Positions 34,623 through 60,575 of a stretch of DNA of 64,000 nucleotides are shown piece by piece. The stretch spans positions 496,001 through 560,000 of the forward strand of contig JAWWNJ010000001.1 of NCBI GenBank assembly GCA_037176885.1, given 5' to 3'. Within the stretch, counting starts at the first letter, position 1, and every line of letters begins with the position of its first letter. The position numbers and the translations under genes were made by a program. This DNA comes from Favolaschia claudopus (taxonomy: Eukaryota; Basidiomycota; Agaricomycetes; Agaricales; Mycenaceae). Below the pieces are notes generated by a model. It ran no database searches. It was given only the letters and a program-made list of their open reading frames with translations, and had not been told where the DNA came from.

Positions 34623-34841
34623 CTACGCGTCTGGATGGTAACTCGGCGGGGCTATCGAGTCCCTGTGATCTCGCTCCGCCAATCGTCGCACCTCCTCTGT
34701 CAAATTTCTCAGCTGTTCCATCACTGACAGATCTGCGGCTGCGGCTGGCGAGGAAGAACCGCCATTTTCTCCTCCTCCGGCAGTCTCGCCAGGCTGAGTC
34801 GCTGAACCTGAACCTGCGTCAATCTGATAAGAATAGTTAGG
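34623..34841 (-). pseudogene. Stranded 3' end of the pepsin-like gene (C-terminal tail)
   Basis: A minus-strand frame from the left border of the 23-kb transposon to a TAG at 34623-34625 encodes 72 residues ending in EEVRRLAERDHRDSIAPPSY and four more. This is a typical cytoplasmic tail of basidiomycete membrane proteins (an MEQLRNLTEEVRRL helix, then APPSY). Its frame joins exactly, across the TAGG duplication, to the fragment at 58113-58182. The fragment no longer has a start of its own and is separated from the rest of the gene by 23 kb. Confidence 0.85.
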
Positions 34842-34889
34842 CACTGTAGAGAGAAGTCGCAGCCGGAATGACCGCGCCGCGGTTATTTG

Positions 34890-35215
34890 ATTTTTCGCGC
34901 AGTTATTCTGACCGCCTAAATTTTGACCGTGGCCTGCCACGGTCATGCCGACTGTGCGCCGCACAGTCATTCTCAACACAGTCAAACTGGCTGTTCCTGT
35001 TATATGTTACTACAAGTCTTTATTTTGCTCCTAGAATACACAATATCATGCTATGAAGTCTATACTGCCTATCACTGCCCATAAATTCCATGTTGTTACA
35101 AGATCGTAAACTACGGTCAGATCAGCCGCGTCGGCGGTCAAACCGGCTGTGGTGGCGCGGTCAGCCTGACTGCGGCCCTACAGTCGGACCGTCCTGTACC
35201 ACGGTCAGCTTGACC
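34890..35215. repeat. Left subterminal palindrome array
   Basis: Short inverted motifs such as ACCGTGGCCTGCCACGGT, GACTGTGCGCCGCACAGTC and GGTCAGCCTGACTGCGG are clustered here. The same kind of motif occurs inside the right border (57834-58080). They are probably binding sites for the element's transposase. Confidence 0.75.
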
Positions 35216-35441
35216 CACGAAGCGTTTTTTCGCAAAAATCATGCAAAGCAAGGGTTTTATACAATAGAAGATTGTACATGGTGGCACTCTGCGCTCATAG
35301 CAGATTTTTTTTGTATCGAAATTTTATACTATCGTTCCCATCACCTCGTTCCCGCCTAATCGACCAAGGTAACCTTACACCTCAAAAGCCCTCATCGTCG
35401 CTCGCGCTACTCGGGCGCTGGACCGACACACCAACACCACC

Positions 35442-36497
35442 ATGCCCCACGCATCCCAGCCGAGCACTAGTCGAAGACGACAAGTAGAGGAGCTCCTTCA
35501 CCTGATGTTCAGTGCCGACTTGACGAAGACCTCCGCTGACCTACCTCTAGACCGCGCCTGCCGTTCCACCGGAGACTTACGACGTTGCACCAACTCGAAA
35601 CGTTCAACGATTACGGTGGCTTCGTCTACACCTTTGAACAGAGGGTCTTGGACCCACAAACGGGGCGTGTGCTGGGGACAAGGGTCAAATATGGTATGAT
35701 GAACAACATTCAACGGCGACAAGGGGAATACCGGCACTGTGGGGAGATCGGTTGGCTATACTGCTGGCCAACAGAATGCGTCCGCTTCACAGGTCAGTCC
35801 AGTAACTTCTTTCTTTCCCCTTTCGCCCACATCGGAAGTAGAAGCAGCCATTCATCGACAGCTGCGGTCGCGCGGCGCATGCCTCAAAATTTTTAAGTGT
35901 CGCTGCGGGCATCGGCACCGTGAATTCTTCGAAAAGTCCAAGATCGGGGGTCGGGGTGCCATATGTCGCGCAGTCGAAGACGTTTTGAGGGCTACGGGTC
36001 AGATCGTGCAGAGGTCAGTCATCTACGCACATCGAAATCGTTTGACCACTTACCGTTGTACAGAATCATATTATAGCAGGTTTTGTATCCATTATGGCAC
36101 TGATGAAACCCTTGCACGCGAAATTCTTGATGAGAACTCACCCGCCTACCGATCTCCATCGACTGTGAAGACGCTGAAGTCATCATCGCGACTACCGCGC
36201 TCGACTTTCAAGCAGCGAACCTTGAATCGTGGGCGAATTGAAACCGGACACTCGCTGCTCGAAAATCCCAAATCCCCATCAACACCACCGCCGTGCCCAC
36301 AGCACACGCGTTCCGCCCCTCTCACACCTCTCAAAGTCCTTCGAACGCCTTGCCTTCGTGAACAACAGCCACGCCGACATCATCGGCTCGGCGTCGGACG
36401 CTCCCGCCTATCCACCGCGTCTAACCTCACCCGCGCGCCAACGAATCGAATCCCCTCGGCGTATACGCAACCGGGGCTGAACTTGTTGCGCCGCTGA
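35442..36497 (+). CDS. GIY-YIG / T5orf172-domain protein (transposon cargo)
   Basis: The recognisable core is GGFVYTFEQRVLDPQTGRVL, then RVKYGMMNNIQRRQGEYRHC (GIY-YIG strands with the conserved KYG..N..RR), EIGWLYCWPTECVRF, an intron beginning near 35,790, then SEVEAAIHRQLRSRGACLK and FKCRCGHRHREFFEKS. This is the order of the T5orf172/MUG113 branch of GIY-YIG domains, which is abundant in basidiomycetes. The N-terminal exon is not resolved: an ATG at 35442 is in another frame and would need an intron ending at about 35,548. Another intron (GTCAGT..TTATAG, ~36,013-36,077) is likely, so the C-terminal end is uncertain. Predicted role: a DNA-nicking or DNA-binding helper of the transposon (inference). 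Confidence 0.65.
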
Positions 36498-37345
36498 TAC
36501 CGTCTACTACGAGTCGGTGATCGACTCGCTCGCTCGCGCAAACCTCGCGCCGCCGCTGAATTTTACCCGGGACTCCCCCTGGGACATCACTGCTCTAAGC
36601 CGGTGTTGTCTCGCGATGCCCGTGCCCTCTCCTACGTTCTCCTGCGTCTCCTTCTCTGACTAACGCTTCCTCCTCGCCCTGGTACGCTGCGTACTCCACC
36701 GCCCCGGGGCTAAGACGAATAAGACTGAGTCAGCAAAGACATCGTCGGTTCGATGACATGCGTACCATCTCGGGGTCCGAATACTCGTCGTATTCGAACG
36801 CCCTCGAGACCTCGAGCGTAGAACACCGTCTACATCCGACCCGACCCGTGTCGCCGCCGCCGCCGCCGTAGCCGTAGCTGCACACTTGTCCGCTTGGCAA
36901 AGGGCGTCGACGTGAGTTTCAAGCTATGTTTTTGCACGTATCTCCCAAATTTCCCGCTCACGAAAACGCTTGCTGTAGCGTCAGATAAGCAGTCTAAGTG
37001 CGATTGACCTGCGATATGTTCTGTATATACTGTAGTCAGTAAAGTGAATCGAATGGTATTAGCTTCGACACTTACGTGCATTGCGAATCAGTGCCGTTTG
37101 AGTTCTGCATTCAAGATACCAAGTCGGGGAGCCTCCGGACCCGTCTCGCCTATGTTAGCACGAGCTCGACCTATGTAACCTTTCTGAGGATGAGGTTCGT
37201 TCCCCCGCATCCTTTTCTTATTTCCATAGTTTGCATTGAAATGAACGCCTTACTTGCACAATGACATCCAACTGTAAAGAAAACTCGTTAATTTCCGTAT
37301 CCTACAGCGCGGATACATCGTAAGCGATTTAAATCTGCAAGAATA
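36498..37345. other. Intergenic inside the transposon
   Basis: Lies between the GIY-YIG gene (+) and the 3' end of the transposase (-). It is GC-rich at 36.5-36.9 kb with a CCG-type run at about 36,850. No further gene is recognised. Confidence 0.45.
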
Positions 37346-40300
37346 TTAGCACCTGATAGACTGAATAGTCGGACGAGGGGCATACACACAAGAAATTTGA
37401 CGGTCTACACCGTCACAAACGACGGATGCAAGAGGCCCCCCGCTCCGATCTACAATGCCCCACTCGCCCCTTGTCGGCATCCGCCCGACCACCGCAACTA
37501 CTGTACGTATGTCCTGCACGATCGGCTGCGTCTTTTGGGTATAAGAAACGACCTCATTGCAAGCATCCCTGCCAGCAGTCGAGCAGGGTTGTATCACAGC
37601 CAGCAGCCTGGTTTTTTCCGGCCAATTCGCCGAAAGCCCTGCGATCGGGCAATTCGCACACCAAAATCTCCTGAATCTCTCCATAAAACACCTGAGGTAT
37701 CCATCTATTGTCGTCTCCCCGCACATTGGGCTCGTACTGTAGACCACTTGATGTTAACTCCCATCGTATAAATGCAAGATATTACTCACACGCCCGTATA
37801 ACATCTCTCTCTCGCTAGCTTCGTCTGCATCGCTGTGGCTCGCACACGCGGCGCGGAAACTGTCCCCTCCCAAGATGCGCATCTTGCCCCATCGCGGCAT
37901 GACTTCAGGTAACCACTTTTCGATGGTAGCACGTTTTGACGAAGTTACTGCCGCAAAATAATTTGCGATACGTGTCCGGGTAATTGCGTCAGGGACATGT
38001 CCGCCTCTGTATGGCACTCGCATAACATAGTCGTCGTCTGTACGAATGTTAGTCAGATGCCGGAATCCAGGTATAACTGACAACTCACAATCCTCGTACT
38101 GCTTCTCAGATCTTGAGAGCAATGCCATATCCCGCTTGGAGTGTCGTGAAAGCTCCTCTCCCAGGTCATACCTAGCTCTGAGCTGCTCCAAATATGCCAG
38201 ATGCAAAATACGATTATTTAGGTTCGCCCATGGATACCGCCGCGAGCGCAGCGTCGACTGCATGTAGCCACAGAAACGTTCCATCCAAAAGGTCCACGTA
38301 GCCCAGACGGGACCACAAAATCTAATGTCATCCGCTATATGCAGAAATCCATGGACAGTAAGCGGACATGCACTTAATCTTGACTCTTCGTACTGGTAGT
38401 AATATCTGCCAAATAATATCAGCGCGGGAAGCTGTAAAATGAGGAGGGACACATACTCCTCGTACTTGCGCACCCAATCAATAATCTCGGCTTGCAAATT
38501 GTCAATCTCAGCGTGCGTGAGTTTGAATGCAATACACGTCTTGAGGATTTCCGCAAACTGACATGCGTGTGTGTAGTACTTCTCGTTGTTGAACCGCCCC
38601 CGCAGCAAGATTGGAGCAAGATACATGAACCAGAAGAACCATGCCTCCGCCGTATAGTATGATGGGTTGCTGGGGAAGGAACGCACAAACTGGGAAGGTA
38701 TATATTTGATCGCGTCCCGGGTTTCCTGCCAGATCTCTTCCCAAACGGCGTCCGAAATTTCGTAGTCCTCGGACCCAGTATCCAACCCTTTGTATTTACC
38801 ACTCCATAATTTGACCAGATTGGGGATCATGTTCTCCGCCGGCAGATGCATGAAATCCCAGGGCGCAGACTTTGAAAAGTCTATGGATCCTACTCGCCGT
38901 AAAACGGGGAGACCTTTGACACCATGCCTCTTCGAGATGGCTTCCTTCTTTTTGCGGGTTGCGCTGGCCTCGATCTCAGCAGCTACTCTCACTATGCTCC
39001 TGTGTGTCCGCAGAGGAAGCTGGTCTGGTATCCATGACCGACGTACGATGTTGCCGGCTGCATCTGTCTCCGGAGGATCCGTCGTGGGGGCAGTGAGGGG
39101 CACGTAGTAGATTGTCTGAGCAGCGGTAACGTTTCGGGTTCCCTTGATCTGACAAGATCGACAAGGGGAAAATCCGTTGTGCCCTTTGATGTTCAAGAGC
39201 TTCTCGATAGCGATGATATCCCCCAGCTCGAACAAATTGTATGCCCGCAGGGCGAACTCTTCTCCTGCGTAGGAATCATAAGTGCGGACTCCATATGCCA
39301 GAGCCGCTAACTCGTCGTCGTACGGGATAAGGAAGCTGCGAGCATCCTTTGGTCCATGAGGTCCAGGGATGATACCGCTGCAGATTGTTTGGTCGAGGTG
39401 GGTTTGTATGGATGGAGGGAGATTGAAGTTCTTAATCAGAATGGGAGTTGCGGAGGGGCCGCCACGGTTTCTCTTGAAAAGAAGGTAGGAGTCCACGCAT
39501 ATGCCGAGCGCAATGTCATTCTTATGACAGAAATACTTGTAGGGCATCATCTCCCCGTCTACTGTGACATTTTTCTTGCATAAATTGAGATAATGTTGGG
39601 CGTCGAAAACATCGCGTATAGCATCTGGATCCTGCTCATATTCATGCCGATAGAGGAGCAGTTTTACTGTCTCGGGGTTTTGGAAATAGCCTTGAAGGCG
39701 GGGAATGAGGGGGAGGTAGCAATATAAGCGGCGTGGCTTGTGTAGACCGGGGGTATATCGTGGTTCCTGACAATATTTGCACACATCCAAGTCTGCATCG
39801 TCACCCGTGTACGCCATACAAGAATTCACGCAGCAGTGATGCCAGATCGGTTCCACCTGAGATAGTACCGCCATGCGATGAATCATGACATATTCAGAAC
39901 TAATGTCGAGCTTGTGGTCGAAAGCGTAACGCATTTGTTCAAAAACTTCGCGAGCCATGTTGGACATCATTTTGAGATTAAAAGCGCGTATATTGTCTCT
40001 ATCGCGGTCCGACATCGCATGATTACCTGCGGCAGATTAGTACACAAAGAAAAACGGAATGTCAGAGAATACACACGAAGATCCCACCTGTCGCGAGCCT
40101 CATCTGGGGACAACATTTCCTCCAGAGCCCTTGATTCTCATCTCGCGAGTGTACGGGCGGTCGGCATCCAACTCCTCGTCAAAATATTGCCATCCCACGT
40201 ATTCCGCGAGTTCATCTTCTGGTAGCTCCAACTTATTGAATCCGTCGGAGCCGTCAGAGTCCGCATCGCTTTCTTCCTCCTCGTACTCCAGATCAGGTTG

Positions 40301-40594
40301 AGGACTCTCCGGCGGGCTAGTGTCCAATTGCATCGGAACGGGCGATTCCCCACTGCTCATGGAGTGATCTTCTTCATCGGCCTCGCGCTCACTCCCTTCC
40401 TCCATCGCGGAGTCAGACTCAAATTCCTCTTCTTGGTCACCCACATCCGAATCTGACGACCGCGCTTCTTCAGGGTCTGCTCTATCATAATGCCTCCTGC
40501 GAGAGCGGCCCTGGAGGGCTTTATTGCAAAACTTCCCGCAGCGGCATATCTTGACGCGGTCCTCGTGCGGTCGGCCACGAGTATGTCCAGGCAT
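37346..40594 (-). pseudogene. Tnp2/Plavaka-type transposase with two frame breaks
   Basis: Exon 1 starts at 40594 (MPGHTRGRPHEDRVKICRCG) with a CxCxxxC-like start and an acidic region. After an intron, a 753-codon frame (40015-37754) carries the Tnp2 core: DVFDAQHYLNLC, DIALGICVDSYLLFKRNRGG, the GxxPGPxxPKD motif (IPGPHGPKDARSFLIPYDDE), a zinc-like HNGFSPCRSCQIKG, the conserved LKDxMHL-like SAPWDFMHLPAENMIPNLV, and VWATWTFWMERFCGYMQ. A last exon adds FYGEIQEILVCELPDRRAFG and GRMPTRGEWGIVDRSG, with a stop at 37346. Frame breaks occur at about 40,127-40,133 (before the exon-1 donor) and in a T6 run at 37,612-37,617. The protein would catalyse cut-and-paste transposition; as written it is broken. 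Confidence 0.88.
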
Positions 40595-41012
40595 TTTCGA
40601 GATCCTAGAAAAATAAATTCAACACTGAGGAGCATTGTATCAAAGCGTTCTCTCACTTACACTCCCTACAAGATTTTCACAATTACTTACACTGAATTCT
40701 ACATTGATTACATGGATGCTCAAGTCAAAACTGTAATAGCTTCCGAGCTCTGGTGGCATCAGAGATCATTGCGCCCAACACGGCACGAACTGGCCGCTTT
40801 CTTCGCAATCATCAGACTGCATTGTTGATTGATGGTGGCTCACTAGTTTTCTCACCCGTACCACCACGTCGTAAGTAGCGAAGTAGAATAGAATAAAGCT
40901 ACATTCACGCAATTGCGCGTTCTGAGGATAAGAATACATAGAGCTCAAGTGGACTTGAAGTAAAAAATCAAAACTATCTTTCTGTTTCTACAACACCCCA
41001 CACAGACGATCC
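40595..41012. promoter_or_regulatory. Divergent promoter region inside the transposon
   Basis: This 418-bp AT-richer spacer lies between the divergent starts of the transposase (-, 40594) and the SPT5-like gene (+, 41013). The position implies a shared bidirectional promoter. No specific motif was identified. Confidence 0.45.
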
Positions 41013-43340
41013 ATGACTGACCGCAGCGCCGACGACGACCAATGGTGGGAAGACAACTATGAACAAGACACTATGGAGAGCGTGTCAAAATCTGAAGGAA
41101 CGGCGCTGGGGTACCTAGAGTTTTATGGGGACGAAGAGGAGGACGACGACCACGGTACGTGCACTAGACTTGCTCACATGCGCGGCGCGTTGACCATGTT
41201 TTTCTCCAGACAACACCGCTATGGATGCACAGCCTACCAATGTTTTGGATCCCCCATCTACACCAGGTAAATCATTGTAGGCTCAGAGAATGTGTCTGAC
41301 TGTTTTTTGGTGGCAGGAGCTCTCGCGACCCAACAATCTATTCCAGCGACAACAAGCACTAATTTACCTGAAGTATGTGCTTTGTGTTGATTTCAACAGC
41401 TGTTAATTTGAGTAGCCACCCCCTACGCAGAATCTGGAGCGGGAGGATACCGATGAGGTCTCCATCCCCCGCGATGTCATAAAGTTTTTCGACCTGGAGG
41501 CGCTGGATGGAGAGGATGAGGTAGACGAACCAGCAACGGTGGAAGACCAGGGTAAATTTGGGATCCGTAATCTTTATATGCACGCTAACACTTTATAACA
41601 GATTTTATTGACGACCAACAAGCGACCGAGGAAGGCGCATCGATTCAATCTGCGTTTCCGACTCTGCATCTCGACGACAGCGAAACCCCCGATGAGATTG
41701 TACGCAATTTACGCTCCCGATACGGTGTCGTGAGGGCCAGGCTTCCCAAAGACTCCGATTTCTCTGCGCCCCCCAACCTCCCAAATGCCTTCCAAAAACT
41801 CCATCTCGTCCCCACAATCCATGACCCCGAGCTCTATCGCGTGAAGGTGCACCCTGGGTGTGAATACGCCTTCATTCATTGGCTATACTCCCTCGTTCCT
41901 GACAACTCCACCAACCCACTGCTTCTCTCGGCATTCTACCGCCCAGATACTCGCGGATGGGTTTACGTCGAGACTCTGGATCGCAAAACCCTTCAATGGG
42001 CTTTGCAGAATCAGCGAGTGAAGCTTGGTGATTTGGTTCCCGTGGTTGACCGTGTCGCGCTACTCCAAGTACCCAGCAGCCACCTTCATCCCGGTTGGGC
42101 CAAGCTACAAAACGCCGGGATATACAACGGCGATATCGGGTTCGTGAGTAACGTGCACTCAGATCCAGCTTTGGTATACGTCGTGCCGCGATACCACGCC
42201 TTTGGGGACGAGACAGTAGACTCACGGGGCAATAAAATACGACCTCCTCGAAGACCATTCACCATGAACCGGCGGTGGGCTGGTGCCGCCTCGCGACCTA
42301 ACACGCGAGTGAATCGTGCGGCGCGCGTTGCTATGTCGGATGGGTCGATGTTTGAGGACGGTTTGACCTCTGTCTTCTTTCGTGCCAGTCAGCTCGAGCA
42401 ACGCGGAATCCGACCTAGCGAGAGTGATCTCGAGTTTTTCCGTGCAGCGCGAGTGCGGGATCTGGATGAAGCGGACTTGGAATTCCCTTCGCTTGCCCTC
42501 CACGAGGGGGAGCGGTTTGTGATCCCCGATGGGCGGTCCTGGTCGTTTGTTGACCGCAAGGGCAAAAAAAGGCACAAGCACCTCAGGCACCGCGGGTGAC
42601 ATCCTGGCTATCAAAGATGTCAATGGGGAGCGCATGGCGGCATGCAGAGATAATTGGGATGAGGACGACGACTTCAAGATCATCCCCGTTCGCTTCATGT
42701 CACGCAGTCAGATGAATTACCCACTCACCCTGCGGCTTTTCGACCGAGTACTGATAGTAGGGGGTCTTGTTGGTCGTGGGCGCACAGGGCGTGTTGTCAG
42801 CATTGATTCGGATGGAATCGTCGAACTTTACCTCACCTCTCCTCTCGCCGACGAATCTTCGTCCAGTGCAGACCAAGTCCCGTTTGAAATGTCCGATCTA
42901 GCAATTTGCTTCATACCAGGAGACTGGGTGGACGTTGTACGAGGGACAGACAACGGGCTGAAAGGTCTCATCGTTGGTTTTCGCTCCAGAGGTATCGTCG
43001 AGGTGTTTCTGGTAAGATTATATAGAGCTTTATCTCGTGGGTCAACTAACCATGGTGTCAGCCCCCGACCTCCAATCAAGACATTGGCAACCTCATTCAG
43101 GTCCCGTTCTACGCTCTAAAGCAGTCGCGTCCCGAAGAACCACAGTTTGTGCAGTGGAGTGCCTCACTCCCCGCTCCGATTGACGATGACTCGGATTCGC
43201 TGTCGCAAGAGATCTACTCCGCCAAGGAGTCCAGCTTTGCTACGGTCCTTGAAAAGGGATCGGCTCTCCGGCATTGTTTTGCCCAGGAGCTTCTGCGACA
43301 GGATGCGAAACTCAGGCACAAGGTCGCGCTCGCCATGAAA
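41013..43340 (+). pseudogene. SPT5-like elongation-factor mimic, N-terminal part (interrupted)
   Basis: The start at 41013 opens an acidic N-terminus (GDEEEDDDH) over several short exons. It is followed by an NGN-like stretch (LYRVKVHPGCEYAFIHWLYS.. GWVYVETLDRKTLQWAL) and KOW-like segments (WAKLQNAGIYNGDIGFVSNV; LFDRVLIVGGLVGRGRTGRV; IPGDWVDVVRGTDNGLKGLI). This architecture copies the transcription elongation factor SPT5. The frame shifts by one base in an A7 run (42,564-42,570): VDRKGKK continues as GTSTSGTAGD only if one A is removed. At codon ..ALAMK (43,338-43,340) the gene is cut by the 6.6-kb inner element and resumes in frame at 49,939. It is probably nuclear; a role in helping transcription of the transposon or host is inference. 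Confidence 0.8.
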
Positions 43341-43791
43341 CACTGGGGGCACACCATCATTTCCAGGGCCGGGAAATAGCTGGGAAATAGGCGGGAAATA
43401 GAATATCTCCCTATTATTTCCCTATTATTTACAGGCCAGGGAAATACTAGGGAAATAAATTATTTCCCTTAAATTTCCCAGATATTTCCAGGCTAGGGAA
43501 ATAGAATATTTCCCTGATATTTCCCCGGTATTTCCCCATTATTTCCCCGTGTGGGAAAATTTCCATTTCCAGGGCTGGGAAATAGTAGGGAAATAATGAA
43601 CCAAACAAACCAAAAAGGAAATAAAAGACTTGCTAAAAAAGGCAATTTTTTATGGCACCATTGATTGGGATTCCATCGAATGATGGGGATTGTCTATGAA
43701 TTGATTAGGATTCAGATTCCAACCATAAATCTGAAAAACATATGTTTAAAGAAAAGAAAAAAGGTTCAGGGCCTATTCTGAATCAATAGCT
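43341..43791 (+). repeat. Left terminal inverted repeat of the nested element
   Basis: It matches the complement of 49488-49935. Over the first ~260 bases only one substitution is visible (CCCCGTGTGG against CCCGGTGTGG); a few substitutions and small indels lie further in. The outer 270 bp consist largely of GGGAAATA / TATTTCCC motifs in both orientations. Confidence 0.92.
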
Positions 43792-45920
43792 GTGAGAGAA
43801 CCAGTTGCAGAGAGCATCTGCATGGTGGCTATGTGATAATCATCAGAATGAACTTCAATTGCCTTATAAAGGTTATCTCAGAAGCCTTGTCACAATTAGG
43901 TGCTGCGAATCTTTGAGTTATGTTTCCCATCCCCTATAGGAAGCACCGACTCCATCGGCAGACACCTTGCTTGAGGTCAAAGGAGTTTTGATTAGCTCAC
44001 TGCGAGCGGGCACTTTAAAATGGGTGCTTAGATTGAGCTGCAATTTAAGCAGAGGCTGAGATTCCTGGCTGAGAGACTGAGAGCTTAGCGAGGAACCGGG
44101 CTCGTTGGAGACTCCCAGAGATGAGGTAATATTGAGGGGAATAGGATCATCGGGTTAGTGAAATGGCGCTGCAATTATGGGGGTGGAGAGACCTTGACAA
44201 GCAAGGTAATGATTGTAGTTTGAATTTTGGGCTTGCTTAATAAAGTGATGTATAAATAGCCAATGCTTGTGTATAATTATAACCCGCCAAGTGTATGTCT
44301 GCCTAATTGTGACAAAGGGAACCAGTAAACAGCCTATAAACCAGTGTACATTATCAATAGCGGTGCGAGCACCGGTCCCCTACTCTGATAGGCTGTCAGT
44401 AAAAAAAAAGATACTAAGCTTTAATGTATACTAAGGCGGCTGGCCAAAGCTCGCTCGGTCCTTGCGCGTCAACCAGCTCTCATTGGCAGGTGAGGTTTAA
44501 CTTTGGTATCTCTATAGCTATATAGTGAATTGTCAAGCACCTGGTATTTCTCGGTGAAAGAGCCGCGCCAAAGCTCACTCGGTCGACACTTGCGTGCCGA
44601 CCAGCTCTCATTGGCCTTGCCAGCGGCCAGCACCTGATGACATCATATGAATCGGGCAACAAAATCCGTGGACGTAACATTGATATCAATGATGGCATTT
44701 GAGTGAGGGGTGGATTGGGAGTTCAGCACCACAGAACCCTACCTCTGTAAACAGAGTAGGGGATTCATGCTTATGAATTTACTGAACTAACTATAATCTT
44801 TATTGCTCTAGGCTTTGGATCTCCCACTTCTTTCTCCCATTGCATGAACAGCACTGAGAGCTGCAAAACTATTCTTGTGCTCTTCCTCCCTGCCTTCTGG
44901 TTACCGCTCAAACGATAAGAATCTGGAAAATGATATTGTCCAAGCAGCTTACCTGTGCTGTTTTCAGATGCGTTTGCAGATTGGTGTTTGCATGTTTCAC
45001 TTCTCAAGCTCCTCTCGCTGTTTGATAACTTGTTCCTCAAGTTCACTATGCAACAGTTGCTATTAGATGCTAGAAAGGAAGGAAAATGACAGACCGGATA
45101 GTCTCTATGTTTTTGATCTGTTCCTTCGCAGCTTGGTCTTTGAGTATTCTGTCTGATAATTGGAATGGAATAAATTCAACATAAACAAAACTTACAGAAA
45201 GGAATCATTGATTTTCTTATTTTCATCTTTCAGAACTTTCAAATGCCTCTAAGTGTTCCTTCCTGAGAAGTTGGATATCATGATGGCTTGTGGCTTTCAA
45301 ATCATTGAGTGTTTTGTCATGTTCCTGTTCCATGAGCATATGTTGTTGTTGCAGGCTAAGAATTGATTTAATTATATAAAAATGAAGACACTACATACGT
45401 ACTGTGTATGCTCATCTTGCAAGCTCTGCAAATATTGTAGAGCTTGCAGCATCTGATCATGATACTTCTTCCTCATGTCTAGCGATGAATCAGACACAGA
45501 TGAACATGGCACCAAAGAGTATCAGATCCTTGCTCCTGCATGGAGAGCACGCCGGAGTGGCTGGGTGGATTAGAATGTTTGACTCTGTTCACAACATTCT
45601 CAAAAAAAGTGGAAGCACAACAGCCTCTCAGGGAACCTCTACTCACTACCGTGTTGTGCTGGCCCGAAAACGGAGGCACCAGCAATAAATTGTGCCTGGA
45701 TTTGCCCATCAATGTGTATGATGAAGATTGGATTGACCGTGATGTTCGACGGAAATATGATCTTCGTCCTTCTATGCAATCATATGATTTTACTCATGAT
45801 GATGACATTATAGAGTATGTGCTCAATCTATATCTTGTTTTGCAGTGTGGAGAGAACTCATATTTATTTCAGGTTGGCAACATCGGGCAGCAGAATCTAG
45901 ATAATCACTGGAGACTGTAT
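43792..45920. other. Non-coding-looking interior of the nested element
   Basis: No gene recognised. It holds an imperfect ~58-bp direct repeat containing CCAAAGCTC(G/A)CTCGGTC and GACCAGCTCTCATTGG, at about 44,442-44,495 and 44,568-44,617. It also has AT-rich, intron-like short frames near 45.4-45.9 kb that are antisense to the gene below. Confidence 0.5.
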
Positions 45921-48836: not shown

Positions 48837-49487
48837 AGTTGTTACAGTCTTTCTCCCTGTAATACAAAGACATCCACTCACTGTTAAATTAGTGCTCTGA
48901 AACAATATGTCTGCCAGTGAGGTTGATGACAGCAAAAGGAGTACTCTTGCAGTCTTGATATTGCAGGCTAAGGAGTCACTTTACGTGGAATTTCTACACC
49001 AAAGAATTGTGTACACTGGTGTCAATTTTATGAGTAGGGTATTGGAACAGATATTGGAACTATACATGATCAGAGCCAAAAAAACACTTTTTATTACTTC
49101 AGTTTGAAACATCACTGCTCCCATCAATGATAGGGCCACATGTGATGTCACCCATTGCATCACCAATGGTGGGACCTGGTATTAGCCAGGCGCACCATAG
49201 AAGGCTTCTGGGATAACCTTTATAAGGGAATTGAAGTTGATTATGATGATTATCATGTTATTCTAGATCATAGATCATTGCTAGTGCTGCCAGGCCGCCA
49301 GGTCGAGGCCCTCGGAGGTGAGGTGACCTTGGTACTCAAAAACCGGTTAGCACTAGAGAAACATGTTTGCTCATGAGTGGGTCACCAGAGCCTAGCTGAA
49401 CTTTTCCGTGGCTCAAACATGGGCCATCACCTCAAGGTACCTCGATCTCGCCTTTGCAAGAAACTTGCAAGAAACTGGTCCTCACAT

Positions 49488-49935
49488 AGCTATTGATTCA
49501 GAATAGGCCCTGAACCTTTTTTTTTCTTTGAACATATGTTTTTCAGATTATGGTTGGAATCTGAATCCTAATCAATTCATAGAGAATCCCCATCATTCGA
49601 TGGAATCCCAATCAATGCTGTCATAGAAAATTGCCTTTTTTAGCAAGTCTTTTATTTCCTTTTTGGTTTGTTTGGTTCATTATTTCCCTACTATTTCCCA
49701 GCCCTGGAAATGGAAATTTTCCCACACCGGGAAATAATGGGGAAATACCGGGGAAATATCAGGGAAATATTCTATTTCCCTAGCCTGGAAATATCTGGGA
49801 AATTTAAGGGAAATAATTTATTTCCCTAGTATTTCCCTGGCCTGTAAATAATAGGGAAATAATAGGGAGATATTCTATTTCCCGCCTATTTCCCAGCTAT
49901 TTCCCGGCCCTGGAAATGATGGTGTGCCCCCAGTG
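49488..49935 (-). repeat. Right terminal inverted repeat of the nested element
   Basis: Complement of 43341-43791, as described there. The inner limit was set where the AATCAATAGCT match ends. Confidence 0.92.
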
Positions 49936-51042: not shown

Positions 51043-52128
51043 TCGATCCGAATAAGTACATGATCCTCCCAAATAAGTAGAAATTGTATTTTGGTCTGAC
51101 GCAATGGAATAAAAAGGTGACGCGGGACATGTGACCGCGTCCCTTCCTTTTCCTTTACCCCCAATGGCCAAGAACGACAAGAAGTCTGCCCCCAAGGCCA
51201 AACCCGCATCAGGTCAAAAGAAGACGACCGTGAAACCTCCAGAAACACTCGACGAGAAAGAAGCGCGTCTCGCGGCGAAGGAAGCCAACCTCGCTGAACG
51301 CGAGGCCGAGTTGGGTATGTCGCGTCGCTCTCAGTAACAGAAACGCGCTGATCATTCCTTCAGATGGCAAAGCTCGTGCATTAAAGCGTAAGCGACAAGC
51401 CAAGCTGATCCCTGCGCCCCCGGGTCAGTCCGGCCGCAAGAAAGGTGGATACAATCTCCAGGAAGTATTGGAACTGAGCGACAAGGATTACCAGCGGCGT
51501 TACGTGAGCCACTAGATCTTTTGCTACGTCTGCACCTACTGACACGACTCATCAGCGTATGGTTAAGCGATTCACCTACGAACACATGTCGAACTTTGAG
51601 GCATATGGACACCAATCGAAGCAAAAGGCTCAGCAAATGTTGATTAAAGTAGTTATTCGTCTCTTGACCTCTCGTCATATTCGTGGAGCTTACCTCAAAC
51701 AGGTTCAAGAGGGCATTCCCTATTTCAGACAATTTGAAAATGCATGGGCTGCGAAGGAGATCGCGCGGACCTTTCTGGGCGGCGAGCAAAAAAGGCGGAG
51801 GAAAGACGATGCAGAAGAGGAGGCCGCATGGGCGAGGGAACAGGCGGAGTTGGATGAAGAGCCCAGCTCAAAGCGTCCTAAACTACCTACTTCCTCAAAG
51901 CATAAATCTAAGGCCACTCAGAAAAGAACGGTACGCCATTTCTTCCTGTCTACTATCTTCTCTGACTCTTTGTATCTTTAGTCCAAGCGCAAAATCGTGG
52001 AGAGTCCATCAGAGTCGGAGGAGGATGCTGCGGTCTTGTCTGCGGGTCCTGATGATGACGATACGGACTGGGAGGATATAGAAGAAGAGGACGACAGCTC
52101 TGATGTGAAGCAAGTGAGGATGGACGAT

Positions 52129-52325
52129 GTAAGTTCCCAGTGTTTATTATGCCTCCCACACCTACTCCTTCTTTTCCAGGCGAACGAGCAGGGACGGTTC
52201 CCCGACAACGACGATCAAACGGTCGATGTCAGTACCCAGGATTTATTATCCTTCGCATACCCACTCATTTTCTCCAGGAATACGACCAAGGATACTTCCC
52301 CGACAACGACGATGATCCCCGGGAG
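52129..52325 (+). repeat. Tandemly duplicated intron-exon unit
   Basis: Intron 52129-52179 plus exon 52180-52227, and intron 52228-52277 plus the exon from 52278, are copies of each other (unit ~98 bp). The introns share CCCAG.(G)TTTATTAT..CC..C.CA.AC..CTC.TTTTC.CCAG. The exons share GA.CA.GGA....TTCCCCGACAACGACGAT, giving QGRFPDNDD and QGYFPDNDD. Confidence 0.8.
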
Positions 52326-53544
52326 TTCCACGACCACGTCATCATTGTAGATGAAAAGGTTTGTTGTTTTTCATACGTTTAGGCCATCGCTGATCACAAT
52401 TAGGAAAATCGAGCTCCCAGCCCCGCGTCTCCCGCTGCAGCTGGCGTACAAACCCTCGCAACCCCTGCCAAGAAGATTGACAAGGGTAAAGGGAGAGCCC
52501 ACACCGCGCAGGTCTCACGGGCAGCTCGAAACAAAAACGCCACCGAAAATCCAGAAGCGGCTCTGACCTGGGAGACACTTCCAAAGACATGCCCAAGTAT
52601 TCTGTGCACCGATGCGCTGCCTCGTGAACCCGTCGCAAAAATTCTATCCCTATTCGAGAAGCGCCGTGCGCAACAAAAGCTCGGCGACAAAGGCGTGCAC
52701 ATCATCGAGCTAGAAATATGTTCCGCCATAACTACGGAGCGTCGCAAGGGAGCGGTATTCGCGTTGGGCCAGCGCAGGCAGTGGCTTCCAGAATTTGATC
52801 CACAGGATTTGGCGCGTCGTCTGGTGGAGAACGAGTTGTGCAACTCCTATGTGCAGATGATCCTCGAACCATACTACTTGGCATCGCAGCCAATTTGGGA
52901 GGAGTTTCTCCTGGCGATAAATTACAAGCTCCTGGCCTTCGAGGGTTCACAAAATAAGAGAGAATTCCCTGCCCTGTTGGAGCATCGGTCATGCGGCTAG
53001 TAAGTCTTGTGTGCTCGACCATGTTGTTGCGACTCAAGCGATTCGCAGTTATGGACCTCAGGGCGTGTACTTGATCACATCATGCCTTCGACGATTCATT
53101 TCGACGATCACCGACCGCATGAATCTAGAAGTAATGCTATACAACACCGTGGATAACATTGTTGCCCACGACGAGGTCAATTTCAACTATAACGACTTCG
53201 CGTCGGCCAATCACATCAGCCTTCAAGATTTCGTGGATTGGATTCTGGTCCCGTATGCAGCCACACGGCTCATCATGCAGGATCTTGGGTACGACAACTA
53301 CGACAACGCCTCCTTCGAGAGACTCAGCAGCAAAGAGTACGGAGAGCTATTCAATCCGGAAGACGATTTCGACGAGGCTGCTGATGATGTTTTGCGCACC
53401 AACGCGCGTGAGATGAGGAAGCTTGCCGGGGGCGCAACAATTCCATATCCTGCACCCGCGACTCAAACCCGCTGAGCCCCCCGCCACTTCCGCTTCCTCG
53501 GTAGGCGAAGGGAGCACGCGACCCGCTCCCCCGGCTCTGCCGTC

Positions 53545-54054
53545 CAGCTCACGCGACACCCCTCCCGTCACGCATCAAACATATGCCCCTGCTTCCGTAG
53601 TCCGAGCGATCGCGCCTCCCGCTCCCAACGCCTCGCAATCGAGCTCACGCGACACCCCTCCCGTCACGCATCAAACATATGCCCCTGCTTCCGTAGTCCG
53701 AGCGGTCGCGCGTCCCGCTCCCAACGCCTCGCAATCGAGCTCACGCGACACCCCTCCCGTCACGCATCAAATGTATGCCCCTGCTTCCGTAGTCCGAGCG
53801 ATCGCGCCTCCCGCTCCCAACGCCTCGCAATCGAGCTCACGCGACACCCCTCCCGTCACGCATCAAATGTATGCCCCTGCTTCCGTAGTCCGAGCGATCG
53901 CGCCTCCCGCTCCCAACGCCTCGCAATCGAGCTCACGCGACACCCCTCCCGTCACGCATCAAATGTATGCCCCTGCTTCCGTAGTCCGAGCGATCGCGCC
54001 TCCCGCTCCCAACGCCTCGCAATCGAGCTCACGCGACACCCTTCTTGACACGCG
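53545..54054 (+). repeat. 96-bp coding tandem repeat, five copies plus a partial
   Basis: Copies begin at 53545, 53641, 53737, 53833 and 53929, with a partial at 54025. Each encodes 32 residues (SSSRDTPPVTHQ.., ..YAPASVVRAIAPPAPNAS..). Copies differ at only a few bases (ACATATG against ATGTATG; CGATCGCGCC against CGGTCGCGCG), so the array expanded recently. Confidence 0.93.
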
Positions 54055-54837
54055 CCAACCCCACGTCGGTGGAAGCGGCTCACTTTTTGCTGCTTCCCCA
54101 TGGCTCGGTCCTAAATCTCCGCCTTCCTCCGCCTTCGGAGATGCTTTCGTTCCCTCAAGCTCTGCTCTCAACAACCGTCGATATATGTTTCCCACAACTG
54201 CATCTCCCTTCGGTGGCCCCAGCACCTCTTCTCACAGATATCCTCATTCGTCGGTTACTCCGGGCAAGACTTATGTTGACGTACTCATGGGCCCCAAGCC
54301 AGTGACAGCACCCGTGAAGATGGAGCCATCGGGGCTTACCACACCGCTGCTCAACATATCCGCTCCTCCCAGACATCGTCGCGCATTGGCAGCTACGAGA
54401 CCTCCGTCTGTGCAAAACGCGGTGATGACGGAAAAATCCACGCCGCAAGTGATCGAGGTCGACGAAGACGCCTCTGTGGCCAAACCGACGACAAAACCAG
54501 TTGAGGTTGTGGCAGGGGGTACAGCGACACTCAAGGTCGGTGTTGCCGTTTTTCTTCGAAACATAACTGACGCCTTGGGTGGTTATAGATTAAGTTGCCT
54601 CCCCCAAAAGGCGTGGTGCAGAAGCCAATAACGCTTGCGGACTACGAAGAGGTGAGCCGTATCTGAAGATCAATAGACTTCGCTGATTTTCTGCCCGTTC
54701 AGCCCGTTAAGCCCAATCAGAAGGCAACGAAAACAAAGCAGGTAAAGAAACAAAATCCGAAGGCCCCTGGCGCTGTAAAGGATAGCGGAGATGCGAAAAC
54801 ACGGCGCACGAGCAAGCGCCTGAATCCTGAGAACTAA

Positions 54838-55548
54838 TAGGTTTCAAAGTTTGGACTTTGTCATGGACTAGGACTTTTTCGCAGATTTTTTCTTGGACTC
54901 TCTCGTAGACTTACTTACCGTAGCATGAACTAACTAGCACTACCATCACGTATAACCCGAACTACTGTAGAATAACCATTTTGAAGAACTACGTAGCGCC
55001 GAAAAAAAGATTTGCCTCCGTGTTTATTGTTGTTTACTCGACACGGTCAATAGCGTGTTTGTTATTGTTGATGCGTTTGTTGACGCGTCTCTTCCTTTCC
55101 TCCCACCACCCTGCCCGACCCCGCGCTTTCTGCAGCCTTCTACGCGTCGCATACGGCACACACTGACTCTAGATGTCGCCCAACACCTCCCAACCGCCTT
55201 GTAGTGTCTCCTTGGCAGGTTGCTTGCCCGCTCGCAAGGCTGACGCGTCCGACGCGTCAGGTTTCCTCTGTCGTCAACGGGCGCCACCACACGCGAAAAT
55301 CGGTCACCCACGGCGTTTTTGGACCCCATGACGCGTCCTGTCTTCATTTTGACGCGTCTGAGGGAGGCGAGAGGGTCACATGTCGCGTTGTTGACGCGCT
55401 CTACCTCCCCCTCGATCGCTTGATGATCCGCGTCTGACGAGCTCTCTCCATTGCTGAGGGTCCCAGAGCTCGCTCTCTGGCTTTCCAAGACGCGGCATCC
55501 AGTCGGTAGCCGGTCCTCATCACTCGGTCTGACGCAAAAACAACAAGC
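54838..55548. other. Intergenic in the transposon, with an ACGCGT cluster
   Basis: Six ACGCGT hexamers occur at 55083, 55142, 55243, 55252, 55331 and 55352, mostly as TGACGCGTC. ACGCGT is the MluI cell-cycle box of yeast MBF-type factors. The cluster lies just upstream of the microexon-rich gene and could be its promoter, which is inference. Confidence 0.5.
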
Positions 55549-57719
55549 ATGCACCGAGGTCGTCAACTCGTGCCGGGTCCTGCTCTCCTAGGGATGTCCG
55601 CGACGGTTATCGTGGAGTTCAGGTCGGTGCATGTCGCGGTGCATTTAACGGTGCGTGTACTCGTATGCTTTGTTTAGTCCAGCGATGCTAACTACTTCAC
55701 GCGCAGGATATGTGCTCTTGTTCTCCGCGTCACGCTGGACCCCTGACTTGTATTTGACGGCGACGACAACTTCCAGTTTAAGCCCGAGGAATAGGCCAAT
55801 AATATCAACGGCTTTCATCAGTACAAATGCGGTCGTCAGCACCCAGCTGCTTCATCCTACGCTCTGCTCCGTCCTACGCTCACACTGAGGTTGCAGGATT
55901 TCGCTTCCCAATCAAATCTCCGCATCGCCGTCTCTTGCACGGTGTTTCTTCTTGCTGATCCATATGGATATGGGTATTATACCAGCTCAAACAGCATATC
56001 GACTTGGGCGTCAACTGGTCGTGAGTGCATCTTGACACCATTGCAAATACACGGGTGCGTTGATCAGCATCCTCTACTTACGGGTTTTCTCGTTGACTGA
56101 CAAGCACAACAGCGTCGGACGTACAGAGGCCCTGCGGCAAGTCATCCCGCTCCATGAGTGACGCCACGTCTGACCACCTCCCGGGACTTGAAAGGATGCG
56201 GCGGGGCCTTCACGTCGTCGAATTGATATCCAGGTAAGTGCTTAATCTGGTGCTTTTTTCTAAGTGTTATCCTAACTAGTTCATTGCGTGTTACACGCGC
56301 AAAAAATACCGAGGGAAGTTGCCATCTGGGTAAGTGCGCCGCTATTTTTACGGGTCTGCGCTCCTGACGCGATAAAATTGTGCAGCGCAGGGTTGATGAT
56401 GGAGCGGGTACGTGGGCCGCTCATTTGCAAACAGAGTCTCAAATCCGGTCCACATAGGTATAGTGATCAGGATTGCTGCCTTCGGCTGCGAAGGATGTGC
56501 GCGGTGAGTCGCTTCGCTGTACATTTATCAGGACTGATTTATTCTCGTGACTTTTGTATAGGTCGGCTTTGTGACCCAGTTGAAGCTTAAGGTAGGATTA
56601 TACAGGTATCGCGAACACTTCGGGCGACTGATTCGTGTATAGATCTTCCACTTGCCGCTCACAGTTGACTTCGCTGCTGCTTTCTAGTGGTTTTGATGCG
56701 GATTGAAGACTGGTCAACACTGTGATGTTCCATCATCGGCAGGTACGGGCGTCTGCTTTGTGTTTGGGTACAATGCTGACACTTGGACTTCAGGAGTCGT
56801 GAGTTGGAGCTGGCATCGTGCGACTTGAGCTAAGTTCCCGTTAAAATGTGCCGACGATGGCTGATGTATTCTGGAAGGCACGGTTGTTCGTGATACGTGC
56901 TATTCAAGGGCAGTCAAAGGTATGGTTTGCTTTATACTCGGACTTGAACCTGCCGCAAACTTGGTACCATTGTAGGTCGGTGGACTCGCCATCCGGCGCT
57001 AGGAGAGTACGAGTCGCAACCTTCGACGGTGTGCGATTCAAATAAGATATGTATTCATTTTCTCACATCATGTGCAGCGAGAGGCTGCCGCAGCGCAGCA
57101 TTATTGATGCAGTAAGTTCTTCTCGCTCGACTGGGTTCTGCTATGTCGCTTGCTAACGGGAATTTCTTTGATAGATCGGTCGACATGAATTTGGACCTTT
57201 GAAGGTATGTAAGATATAAGATATAGTTCATACAATGGCTAACATATGGTGGACAGCACCGGCTCACTATGCGCGCCGGTATTAAAAGGTACATTTCCGT
57301 CTGTACGAGAATCTCGCTGATTCCGCCCCACTCAGATGTTGCGAAACAACGGGCAACGGGACGACACGTACCATTCAAAAAGGTACATCGTTACCTATAG
57401 GAGAATCTCGCTGACTTCACTCCCACTTGACGCTTAGATTTCGTGAACAATATGTGGTTTGGTTACAGCTAAGTGCCATTACATCGAGCGATGAATATGA
57501 TTCTGAGACATGTCATAGATCCACCGAAAACGCGTCTAGGTGAGTGCTGTGCGATGGTCAATACTTTGAGGATTCTGATATGAAGTTGGATAGGAGACGG
57601 CGGGTCGTTAACTCATGGGCGTGGTCTTGGAGGATATTTGCTCGGCCAGTGAGTGGGTAGCTCATCGAAGTTCCTTAACTGATTTCCTTTGCTAGGATTG
57701 TGAGGATTATCAATTGTAG
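55549..57719 (+). CDS. Putative microexon-rich gene (unknown function)
   Basis: At least thirteen GT..AG intervals of 46-79 nt occur in a row, many with CTAAC/CTGAC/CTGAT branch sites 8-30 nt before the acceptor. They leave exon-like blocks of 17-55 nt: 56280-56329, 56391-56407, 56458-56503, 56562-56591, 56878-56919, 56976-57006, 57078-57111, 57175-57204, 57257-57288, 57336-57382, 57438-57539, 57594-57648 and 57696-57719. From 56878 to 57288 one frame stays open over five blocks (..GRWTRHPALGDERLPQRS, IIDAIGRHEFGPLKHRLTMR). Skipping the 47-nt block at 57336 keeps it open to a stop at 57717-57719 (VNSWAWSWRIFARPDCEDYQ). Including that block gives a stop at 57470. The 5' half, including the start (an ATG lies at 55549), is not resolved. 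No domain is recognised. Confidence 0.5.
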
Positions 57720-57833
57720 GGGTATAATGGGCTATAGTACAGCTTGGTGGTGGTAGTAGTATGCTAGATTGAATAGTAATACAAGATTTTATCGGGAATT
57801 GGATCGAGCGTAAGCAAAGAGTACAATGACTGT

Positions 57834-58080
57834 GTAGACACAGTCAAGTGGACTGTGTGAATGCGCGCCAGATTGACTGTGAGGGTACTGCTAGGCTGGC
57901 TGTGAAGGCGCAGCTGCACTGACTGTGGGCCGCGGTCGGGCTGGCTGTGGTAGCGCAGCCAGGTTGACCGCAAAATTGGCCATAACGCAGCTGAGATGGC
58001 CGTGCGGGCACAGTCAGCCCGACCGCGGTTGCGCGGTCAGGCTGAGCCCATCCCACGGTCAAACAAGCCAGCGCTCGCGC
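57834..58080. repeat. Right subterminal palindrome array
   Basis: Many GACTGTG/CACAGTC and GCGGTCAG/CTGACCGC-type motifs are spaced 15-30 bp apart, mirroring the array inside the left border. Confidence 0.75.
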
Positions 58081-58112
58081 GGCTGTTCCGGCTGTGACTT
58101 CTCCCCACAGTG

Positions 58113-58182
58113 TAGGGTTTGCACCATTCGCTTCGAACTTGCTCTTGAATCGCCGTTCTGCCGATTTGAGCGGTGCCATTTC
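58113..58182 (-). pseudogene. Middle fragment of the pepsin-like gene's last exon
   Basis: About 20 codons (PLKSAERRFKSKFEANGANP on the minus strand) lie trapped between the right border of the 23-kb transposon and the left border of the small hAT element. They are in frame with the upstream part (..RPEMA, 58746 onward) across one GCCATTTC copy and with the downstream part (NYSYQIDAGSG.., 34841 downward) across one TAGG copy. Confidence 0.88.
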
Positions 58183-58745
58183 CAGTGTTCGTCCTTAAGC
58201 CTTAAATTGAGGTCTGGCCGACCCTTAAGGCTTATTAAGCCTTATCCCTTAATAACCCTTAAGACCTTGAAGGCTTAATTTCCTTTTTAGGTAGTTAGTT
58301 CCCACCCTCAAACAGGCGCAAATTTTCAGTGGAGTGTATATATCGGAGCATATTTGCGCATGAAGCACTTCAACCTTTAGTTGTTTTAGGTCAAGGTCAG
58401 TTACTTTGGATTCTACCAAATTCTTGAGCAGTCGGGGAGGTTTGATGAATTTGATGACACCCCTATCAATTATTAGGTCAATTATTTGGCATTTCAGGCG
58501 GCGCGGCATGCATCGACCTTGTTCCGAAGGCAAAATTGCCCAAGACCGAGGAACCCGACAGCCACCATATGATCGGACGGTTTGTTGGCAGGTGCCGGAG
58601 ATACCCGGGTAGTCGGCACGAAGCTCGGCATTACTCTTAAGGGCTCTTAAGCCCTGGATACCTGAGCGGCCAGAGCTTAAGGCTTATGTTAAGGCCTTAA
58701 TAAGCCTTAACCTTAATAAGGCCTTATGCCTTAGGGCAAACACTG
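58183..58745. mobile_element. hAT-type non-autonomous element (563 bp)
   Basis: Ends CAGTGTTCGTCCTTAAG and (complement) CAGTGTTTGCCCTAAGG form a short inverted repeat with the CAGTG start seen in hAT elements. A perfect 8-bp duplication GCCATTTC flanks it (58175-58182, 58746-58753). Subterminal regions are packed with CTTAAG/AAGGCTTAA-type motifs on both sides. No transposase is encoded. Confidence 0.88.
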
Positions 58746-60575
58746 GCCATTTCTGGGCGCTGGTCACTTGCGACAAAGGGTTCTGGTACCAAGTCCCAGT
58801 TAATGCCGCCGTCATATCCGGCCGCCAACTTCGCGTGTTCTTTTCGTCGACGCCTGCGGGTCAGAAGTAATGCAGTCAAAAGGGCAGCACAGAGGACCAA
58901 GGCTCCGATCACTCCCCCAATCACAGCGGCAACAGGTGCTTTCTTTGCGGAGACTGGGGGTGTCGACCTCGGTGGCACAGTGGAACTCGGGGGCGATGAC
59001 GCCGAGCCTGACGAGGCTGTGGAATGCAAAGTCGGTGACAGGGCTGGAATGAGGTCAACTGTGAAGATCTGTCCCGTTATTCATAGGACTACTGCACGAA
59101 CCACCACCACCTTGCTCTGAAAGATCTGCGAACCCAATTGCTGGTGGGTTGCCTTGCCGCAACACTGTATACACGCCTCTCTGTCAAATGTGTCAATGAC
59201 AACTCGAGCAAATGAACTTCAGTTGACTGACCAAAAATGCCTCGCCGAAAACCCAGCCAGGCTGATCCTCCGCCTCACCAATTTCGATCGCACCGAAGCA
59301 CTGTGGATCTGAATCGTTGCCAACCGTGCTGAGCTTCCCAGCATTCAGCTCTGCAGGGTCAAGCGTCCAACTTCGTCCTCCAAAGGACACTGAAACATTC
59401 AAGGTGGTGGAGCATGCTTGAATGAAATAAAGGCCAGTTGAGTACAGCAGCGGTTCGACGTACGATATAGAAATCTTGGGGAAGCTGAGCTGGCTCCCGG
59501 AACTTGTTCCCAAAAGGCTGCAACGGAGCTTGTTGGACCATAGATCCCTGTCCCTTCCAAGTCGAAAGCGACCTTGGTGTGGCCTTGTGTGAGGGGTACC
59601 TCATGTCCTTGAATAGTGAGTGCTGGGAGTGGAATGAAGAATGAGAGAATGAGCTTGATCAACTTGAATACGCACTTGTGATGTTCAGCACCCACGCCGA
59701 AGTGGATGTCGAATCCAAAAACTCAATGTCGCCAGTATACAATGATGAGTTGGTTCCGCCGAAAGTGAATACTCCCGGTGTCGGCGCTTTCGAAGTGCTA
59801 GTGTTGTGCGCGCGCGAAAGCCAGATGCCCATCTCTGGTGCATCGACGGGGTTGCTCGAAAGCAGAGATTGCCATAATGAGGGCAAATTTTGAAAGGAGG
59901 CGCTGGGGAAACCGACTCCGAAAATGCCAGGGTCACCTGTTAGGATGATAGTGTCGTCGTATACAACTGGGGTGGGTGGCTTGAATTAGATGTAACTAGT
60001 CCAAGAAATGACCACACACAAAATGATGCATCTGAAATAGAGAATGGACCAAAGCCAATCACGTCTGTGAAAACACTTCCTGGGAAGGTCGCGTCAAACA
60101 CACTGATAGTTTGCATGCTGGTAGATTGGTTCCGCGCAGACCGTGACTTGGTGTAGTTGAAGTGATTCGATCCGTCGCTGCATACTTTTGCAAAGCATCC
60201 GGGGACCATGGCACCGGGAATAGTGAGAGAGAGGATAAGGGGGAGTGTTTGTGTCCTGTAAAGGATGAGCGCGCTGAAAAACTACCACGGGCAATTCACG
60301 AACGGTGTGCCAAAAGTGATGGGGATGAGGTATTCTTCCGATGGCTGCAAGTACTCGGTTAATATAAGGCGAGTGCCGACTGCGCGTCCACGCACTGCGA
60401 GACCGAGACCGACATCAACCCTGTTCCTCCGCTCGACACCGAGCAAAGAACGGGCCATGGCAGAGCCGGAATGGGGCAACACCTGGCGAATGAGCGGTAG
60501 GTGAACAGGCTCTGCGTATGCTAGAGAAAACAAGGAGAGTAGAGACCCCGGTACCAGCCAGATGAGCAAGAACAT
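58724..60575 (-). CDS. Membrane-anchored pepsin-like (A1 family) protein lacking the catalytic DTG motifs, C-terminally truncated
   Basis: The start at 60575 gives a signal peptide (MFLLIWLVPGSLLSLFSLAY). Exons then read YLIPITFGTPTQTLPLILSL (the A1 N-terminal strand), GIFGVGFPS-like and GVFTFGGTNSSLYTGDIEFL, VAFDLEGTGIYGPTSSVAAF, ISYVEPLLYSTGLYFIQACS, VSVSFGGRSWTLDPAELNAG and VYTVLRQGNPPAIGFADLSE. These are landmarks of fungal A1 peptidases in the right order. Where active enzymes have D-T-G-S/T, this one reads SLTIPG after LIL and D-L-E-G-T-G in the second lobe, so it is probably inactive. A Ser/Pro stalk, one membrane helix (VAAVIGGVIGALVLCAALLT) and an RRRRRK stop-transfer follow. The hAT insertion supplies a new end (ASVCPKA, stop at 58724), removing 91 tail residues. 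Confidence 0.82.

Follow-up and report, generated by a model that had tools for sequence, protein, structure and literature searches.

Two transposon insertions in the last exon of a pepsin-like gene of Favolaschia claudopus, with a third element nested in the SPT5-like gene of a CACTA element

Introduction

How does one gene come to have its last exon in three parts, scattered over about 24 kb? The question is raised by a pepsin-like gene that runs from 60575 down to 34623 on the minus strand of a 64,000-nucleotide stretch of the basidiomycete Favolaschia claudopus, C1:496001-560000, in an assembly of 264.6 Mb and 460 contigs; this whole stretch is called the window below, and C numbers denote contigs. 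The published draft is a PacBio/Falcon assembly of 265 Mb in which 86.8% of BUSCO genes are duplicated, and its annotation pipeline used RNA-seq (PMC10905254). A preliminary description of the window attributed the broken exon to a hAT element and a "CACTA/Plavaka-like" element, the latter's own SPT5-like gene being cut by a second CACTA element. It took the reading frames, which rejoin once each insertion and one duplication copy are removed, as proof of all six borders and of the order of the CACTA pair. We put the probability at about 0.97 that the pepsin-like gene was cut in its last exon by a hAT and a CACTA element, with a third element nested in the SPT5-like gene of the CACTA. Relatives that lack the insertions carry this reading.

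Borders and uninterrupted relatives

Direct reading placed the borders and target duplications of all three insertions (Table 1) exactly where the preliminary description had them. The joins RPEMA|PLKSAERR, ANP|NYSYQ and LAMK|TGREFF likewise read as claimed, and the stop codon ends at 34623. The frames themselves are weak evidence, because any exonic insertion rejoins in frame after one duplication copy is removed with it. The borders that had been drawn from the frames were right, and it is the uninterrupted copies, rather than the frames, that prove them.

Table 1. Features of the pepsin-like gene and of the elements inserted in it (window positions)
Feature	Position	Strand	Remarks
Pepsin-like gene, 5' part	59058..60575	-	Exons 60575-60304, 60255-60020, 59966-59676, 59607-59464, 59416-59232, 59180-59111; exon 7 starts 59058
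Exon 7 part a	58746..59058	-	Membrane helix and juxtamembrane part; ends at hAT element
hAT target duplication, right copy	58746..58753		GCCATTTC, 8 bp
hAT-type non-autonomous element	58183..58745		563 bp, CAGTGTT ends; the broken gene reads six residues into it before a stop
hAT target duplication, left copy	58175..58182		GCCATTTC, 8 bp
Exon 7 part b	58113..58174	-	62 nt, about 20 residues, between hAT and large CACTA
Large-element duplication, right copy	58113..58116		TAGG, 4 bp
Large CACTA (EnSpm) element	34842..58112		23,271 bp including inner element; CACTG..CAGTG ends
RTC4-like open reading frame, large element	52921..53475	+	PF14474 27.8 bits, cut-off 23.7
SPT5-like gene of large element	41013..51039	+	Cut at 43340/49936; extent by tblastn of P0017 and P0018
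Inner element	43341..49935		6,595 bp, CACTGGGGGCACACC ends, AAA duplication on both sides
Tnp2-type transposase gene	37754..40618	-	760-codon open frame 37754-40036 and likely upstream exon 40100-40618
T5orf172-like open reading frame, large element	35703..36497	+	Match exactly at cut-off, 20.0 bits
Large-element duplication, left copy	34838..34841		TAGG, 4 bp
Exon 7 part c	34623..34837	-	Stranded tail of about 71 residues and stop codon; conserved helical-looking stretch, C-terminal PPSY

The preliminary description had named orthologous proteins without the reconstructed tail as the observation that would speak against it; of the ten F. claudopus proteins compared as close paralogs (P0002-P0011), nine carry the tail and P0010 alone does not. 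One of them, P0007, aligns ungapped across both joins (EMAPLNSAERRFKRKVQANGASPNYPYQIDAG), while about 11 residues are missing around the second join in P0003 and P0006 and a few at the first join in P0005. At the DNA level, we compared 14 paralog loci over the 427-nt joined site. In 11 of them the alignment spans the site, stopping no more than 10 nt from either end, and neither insert is present. Eight of the 11 retain the hAT target in all 8 bp; at the CACTA site three have missing bases and one a 3-nt gap. The locus L015 (C1:573058-578000) is 86.4% identical over the joined site and keeps both targets, and L023, also one of the 11, has a tail that reads with stops. Of the remaining three loci, L019 and L021 gave partial alignments, and the stretch retrieved for L026 ended before the site. 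At the inner site, each of the four other SPT5-like copies found in the genome is uninterrupted, with AAA present once; among these copies the inner element is thus confined to that of the window (0/4 others). Taken as sequence evidence, these copies argue strongly for the borders and against joins that arose by chance.

The inserts also end where their relatives end. The large element has the termini CACTGTAGAGAGAAGTC and GACTTCTCCCCACAGTG, CAC..GTG inverted repeats common to its other copies. Both ends were read in eight copies of this family, and the duplication is 4 bp in six (TAGG, CAAG, CTTA, TTGA, GGGA and AAAA, the last falling in an A run); four of the eight are shorter derivatives, with ends paired by nearness. 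For the hAT element, the best 40 of 305 candidates were scored; the genome holds at least 45 matches, the best full-length one outside the window being 93% identical among the candidates scored. The duplication is exactly 8 bp in five of the eight copies read, window copy included; two more copies that were retrieved but matched over part of their length are not counted.

The damage is recent relative to the divergence of the paralogs, because the stranded 71 codons show no visible decay. They contain no stop, and their median ratio of non-synonymous to synonymous substitution rates (dN/dS) against the ten paralogs is 0.37, compared with 0.43 among those paralogs (45 pairs); this comparison does not include L019, L021, L023 and L026. 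For the 49 codons before the hAT element the ratio is 0.63, and 0.64 among paralogs.

Several observations pull the other way. No empty allele of the pepsin-like gene was found; other copies of the gene body are 74-77% identical, or 80% in one 650-nt piece, and since no closer gene copy was found, the empty sites known for the hAT and large CACTA insertions belong to paralogs and not to alleles. The empty-site comparison that had been proposed for this locus was thus answered by uninterrupted paralogs at 11 of 14 loci, and not by a second allele in the genome. Two of the eight hAT copies have no duplication and one has 9 bp; two of the eight large-element copies have duplications of other lengths, TCA (3 bp, C27) and ATCCG (5 bp, C33). 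At the window site alone, a 4-bp duplication is indistinguishable from 3 bp with one unpaired terminal base. Finally, the middle piece of the exon has a dN/dS of 0.63 versus 0.28 among paralogs, although its 21 codons are too few to weigh.

Could the transposons only seem to lie inside the gene, through repeats collapsed or joined in the assembly? The ends of the hAT and CACTA elements are repeated many times in the genome, and the assembly is a PacBio/Falcon draft in which 86.8% of BUSCO genes are present as duplicates (PMC10905254), a setting in which such an error might be looked for. However, all three insertions have exact target duplications, which are not expected from misjoins, and the inserts stop at termini common to other copies or relatives. 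We therefore consider an assembly artefact highly improbable. Our preferred reading remains one host gene with two insertions and a third nested in one of them, as first described, and it is the uninterrupted relatives that support it.

The pepsin-like gene and its predicted product

The seven exons of the gene join into one reading frame, and the introns between them, 47-68 nt long, all have GT..AG borders. One of these, intron 59463-59417, is needed for the gene and had gone unmentioned; without it exon 4 is out of frame, and a candidate frameshift in exon 4 was rejected because this intron restores the frame. With both inserts out, each with one duplication copy, the joined protein has 595 amino acids. 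It runs from a signal-like start through a pepsin-like domain and a single membrane helix to a basic stretch (signal and helix were judged by eye). The domain matches PF00026 at 103 bits (Pfam) and, over its whole length, PDB 6r61 "Major aspartyl peptidase 1" at 1.2e-30. The public annotation contains this gene, spliced a little differently, as protein P0001, which ends RPEMASVCPKA, six residues into the hAT element.

A whole-domain match is what the family has in common with A1 (pepsin-like) aspartic peptidases. It differs in that its catalytic motifs are replaced and in having a membrane anchor and a conserved cytoplasmic tail. In an alignment with P0002-P0014, the joined window protein reads LSLTIPG at the first catalytic site and DLEGTG at the second; the two D-T/S-G motifs of A1 pepsin are intact at neither site in P0002-P0011, and P0011 is without the first stretch altogether. 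Loss of protease activity is therefore probably not at issue.

What the insertions take away is the tail. The preliminary description had correctly counted 91 residues as lost, and placed them about 24 kb away; 71 do lie beyond the large element, whereas 20 sit between the two insertions. A tblastn search with P0007 matched part c at 80.6% over 72 residues. The lost tail includes a stretch like EQLRNLTEEVRRLAER and ends in PPSY, which is found at the C-terminus of nine of the ten close paralogs and also in the more distant P0012 and Mycena venus P0013.

The events are best explained as follows. A gene for a membrane protein with one transmembrane pass and a pepsin-like ectodomain, one of a tandemly duplicated set, was struck twice in its last exon. 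One hit was that of a short non-autonomous hAT element, with an 8-bp target duplication, and the other that of an EnSpm/CACTA element of about 16.7 kb carrying SPT5-like and RTC4-like genes, with a 4-bp duplication; these two are not nested in one another. A third element, with CACTG ends, entered the SPT5-like gene of that CACTA copy with a 3-bp duplication. The order claimed for the CACTA pair holds to the extent that the inner element entered this large-element copy; nesting is compatible with an arrival that either preceded or followed the move of this copy into the pepsin-like gene.

The truncated protein would keep the ectodomain and membrane helix but end in six hAT-coded residues in place of the 91-residue cytoplasmic tail and its PPSY terminus. 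That the gene yields such an mRNA and protein, and that losing the tail has an effect, is our inference. PPxY motifs are common binding sites for WW-domain ubiquitin-ligase partners, so the most likely effect, should the protein do anything at all, would in our view be a longer life of the truncated form at the membrane.

The truncation would be less complete if the hAT element were spliced out as an intron and the gene still reached at least part b of the tail. Transposon ends can supply splice sites, and of the donors and acceptors tried near the ends of the hAT element, two GT..AG combinations (550 and 574 nt) would leave an open frame with a few extra residues. Against this, the other introns of the gene measure 47-68 nt, the 23-kb CACTA element would still remove the last 71 residues, and the public protein, from an annotation pipeline that drew on RNA-seq (PMC10905254), ends inside the hAT element, although reads may not cover this place. 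Splicing of the hAT element is improbable on this evidence, if less so than an assembly artefact, and we retain the truncated product.

The locus shows cleanly how independent transposon families can truncate a single gene, and the same genome supplies uninterrupted relatives for each of the three sites. As damage it is of an ordinary kind, though the documentation is unusually good; the freshest point is the SPT5-like gene as a probable standing gene of the CACTA family. From such damage automatic annotation makes apparent genes that end inside transposons, such as P0001 and P0018.

A by-product is a family of pepsin-like proteins, arranged in tandem and diverging, that have a membrane anchor and lack catalytic motifs. 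It comprises at least 15 loci in the genome, window locus included, and the closest array pairs among those listed are 81% identical within C224, 87% within C81 and 87% between C73 and C32. The flank at 2564-8360 has two other copies at 94% (C224 and C32), as if three haplotypes had been assembled, whereas the window gene (58754-61500 side) matches these two contigs at only 74-77%, with 80% in the one 650-nt piece. Fast turnover and balancing selection are both possible explanations of this contrast.

Classification of the inserted elements

On its ends and its transposase, the large element is an EnSpm/CACTA element with a Tnp2 transposase. The transposase matches PF02992 (Tnp2) at 46.3 bits (cut-off 28.6), has at least 230 related proteins at E <= 0.001 among the candidates scored, the best of them from Mycena venus (63%), and shows dN/dS values of 0.10-0.35 in ten pairs of element copies, which are not independent. 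The frame 37754-40036 is open throughout in the window, whereas the four other long copies all differ from it by one base at exon position 1588, through either mutation or consensus error. Three other copies have both ends (C123, C27 and C20; 16.2-16.5 kb), and in C56 only the left end was found; the order of the transposase and SPT5-like genes is the same in all four. A 96-bp tandem repeat (5.2 copies, 98% matches) at 53546-54041 lies within an open frame of the large element.

With the fungal EnSpm/CACTA elements of the CMCT clade, as set out by Kojima 2025 (PMC12730594), the large element shares CAC..GTG ends, Tnp2 (PF02992) and short duplications. According to the same account, EnSpm families make 3-bp duplications and the wider clade 2-5 bp (PMC12730594), so that the mostly 4-bp duplications seen here fall within the clade's range but are not the family's usual length. 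The large element also adds SPT5-like, RTC4-like and T5orf172-like reading frames. No TET/JBP match was found in the reading frames of the large element that were scanned, a part of all its frames. Plavaka elements, which like this one are agaricomycete DNA elements of the same wider clade, are defined there by TGT..ACA ends with a 2-bp duplication or by CATCA..TGATG ends with 2-3 bp (PMC12730594). By that definition we reject Plavaka membership, and with it the "Plavaka-like" half of the earlier label, on the CACTG..CAGTG ends and the mostly 4-bp duplications. A CACTA family that makes mostly 4-bp duplications, and has an SPT5-like gene in all five long transposase-bearing copies found, is a second by-product of this work.

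The short insertion resembles non-autonomous elements of the hAT superfamily in its 8-bp duplication, short CAGTG ends and many copies. Its particulars are a length of 563 bp, imperfect inverted ends and no transposase, which it is too short to hold.

The inner element had also been called CACTA, and that label fits in its CAC..GTG ends and 3-bp duplication. Its terminal inverted repeats are 466 bp long and 97.4% identical. Among its 69 open stretches of at least 45 amino acids, the 10 long ones scanned at E <= 1 contained no transposase, which leaves the label less secure, and a match to an RNase H1 N-terminal domain is sub-threshold (18.4 bits, cut-off 21). A relative at C1:4273093-4276386 has CACTG ends and the duplication TCA; a second pair of similar ends, on C23, has inverted flanks and no usable duplication; and no further full copy appeared among the best 40 of 767 candidates scored. 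The inner element could be a non-autonomous CACTA member.

The SPT5-like gene, a probable standing gene of the CACTA family

The gene cut by the inner element is recognisable by its relatives. P0017, an SPT5-like protein that the length of its contig (735,237 bp) assigns to the C123 copy, is 91% identical over the query and reads LAMKTGREFF without the insert. The annotated window protein P0018 ends LAMKHWGHTIISRAGK, inside the inner element, and steps over a frame change near 42565. That frame change lies at an A run, is not in P0017, and may be a consensus error of the long-read draft or a mutation; a second candidate frame change, near 50480, was rejected as an intron by comparison with P0017. 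Pfam scores are below cut-off (Spt5-NGN 21.4-21.7 bits, cut-off 22.4; KOW7 13.5-18.7 bits, cut-off 27.1), and PDB SPT5 chains match the protein at 6e-9 to 1e-8.

A search of the genome with the SPT5-like DNA found five places, window included, and all five adjoin the five long transposase copies. On this pattern the SPT5-like gene is likely a standing gene of the CACTA family. It might instead be a host gene caught in the element by chance: SPT5 is a universal host protein family, and no published description of an SPT5-bearing CACTA was found, which is itself weak evidence as subscription papers lay mostly outside the search. There are also pieces of the family without it, namely transposase fragments at 88-95% on C25 and C96 and element ends on C4, C16, C21, C33, C40 and C248, none of which adjoins an SPT5-like match. 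Yet pieces without the SPT5-like gene also lack a near-complete transposase, and are probably deleted derivatives. Three of the four other SPT5-like places, moreover, sit between both element ends. In part of one exon (163-168 codons), eight of the ten pairs compared, none of them an independent sample, have dN/dS values of 0.07-0.34; the remaining two give 0.00 and 0.63, with three changes each. Chance capture is accordingly unlikely, though slightly less so than splicing of the hAT element, and a standing gene is the reading we favour. No relatives of the SPT5-like protein or the transposase were found in the viral contigs searched.

What a transposon might do with such a gene is a more tentative matter. 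Possibly, though we rate the odds as well below even, the CACTA family keeps its own SPT5/NusG-type elongation factor under purifying selection and may use it to transcribe its long genes through silencing chromatin. If so, the SPT5-like gene would be a different answer to the silencing problem from that of the fungal transposons with TET/JBP dioxygenases.

Other features of the window

No RNA families or tRNAs were found in the window. Between 13.1 and 33 kb there were no copies at 94% among 37 of 894 candidates scored, an absence that therefore says little. A repeat of about 250 bp at roughly 17888-18137 has many genome copies, mostly at 94-98%. The stretch 25409-28090 has one copy at 99% on C48 and two at 96% on C9, and is probably a further recent mobile element.

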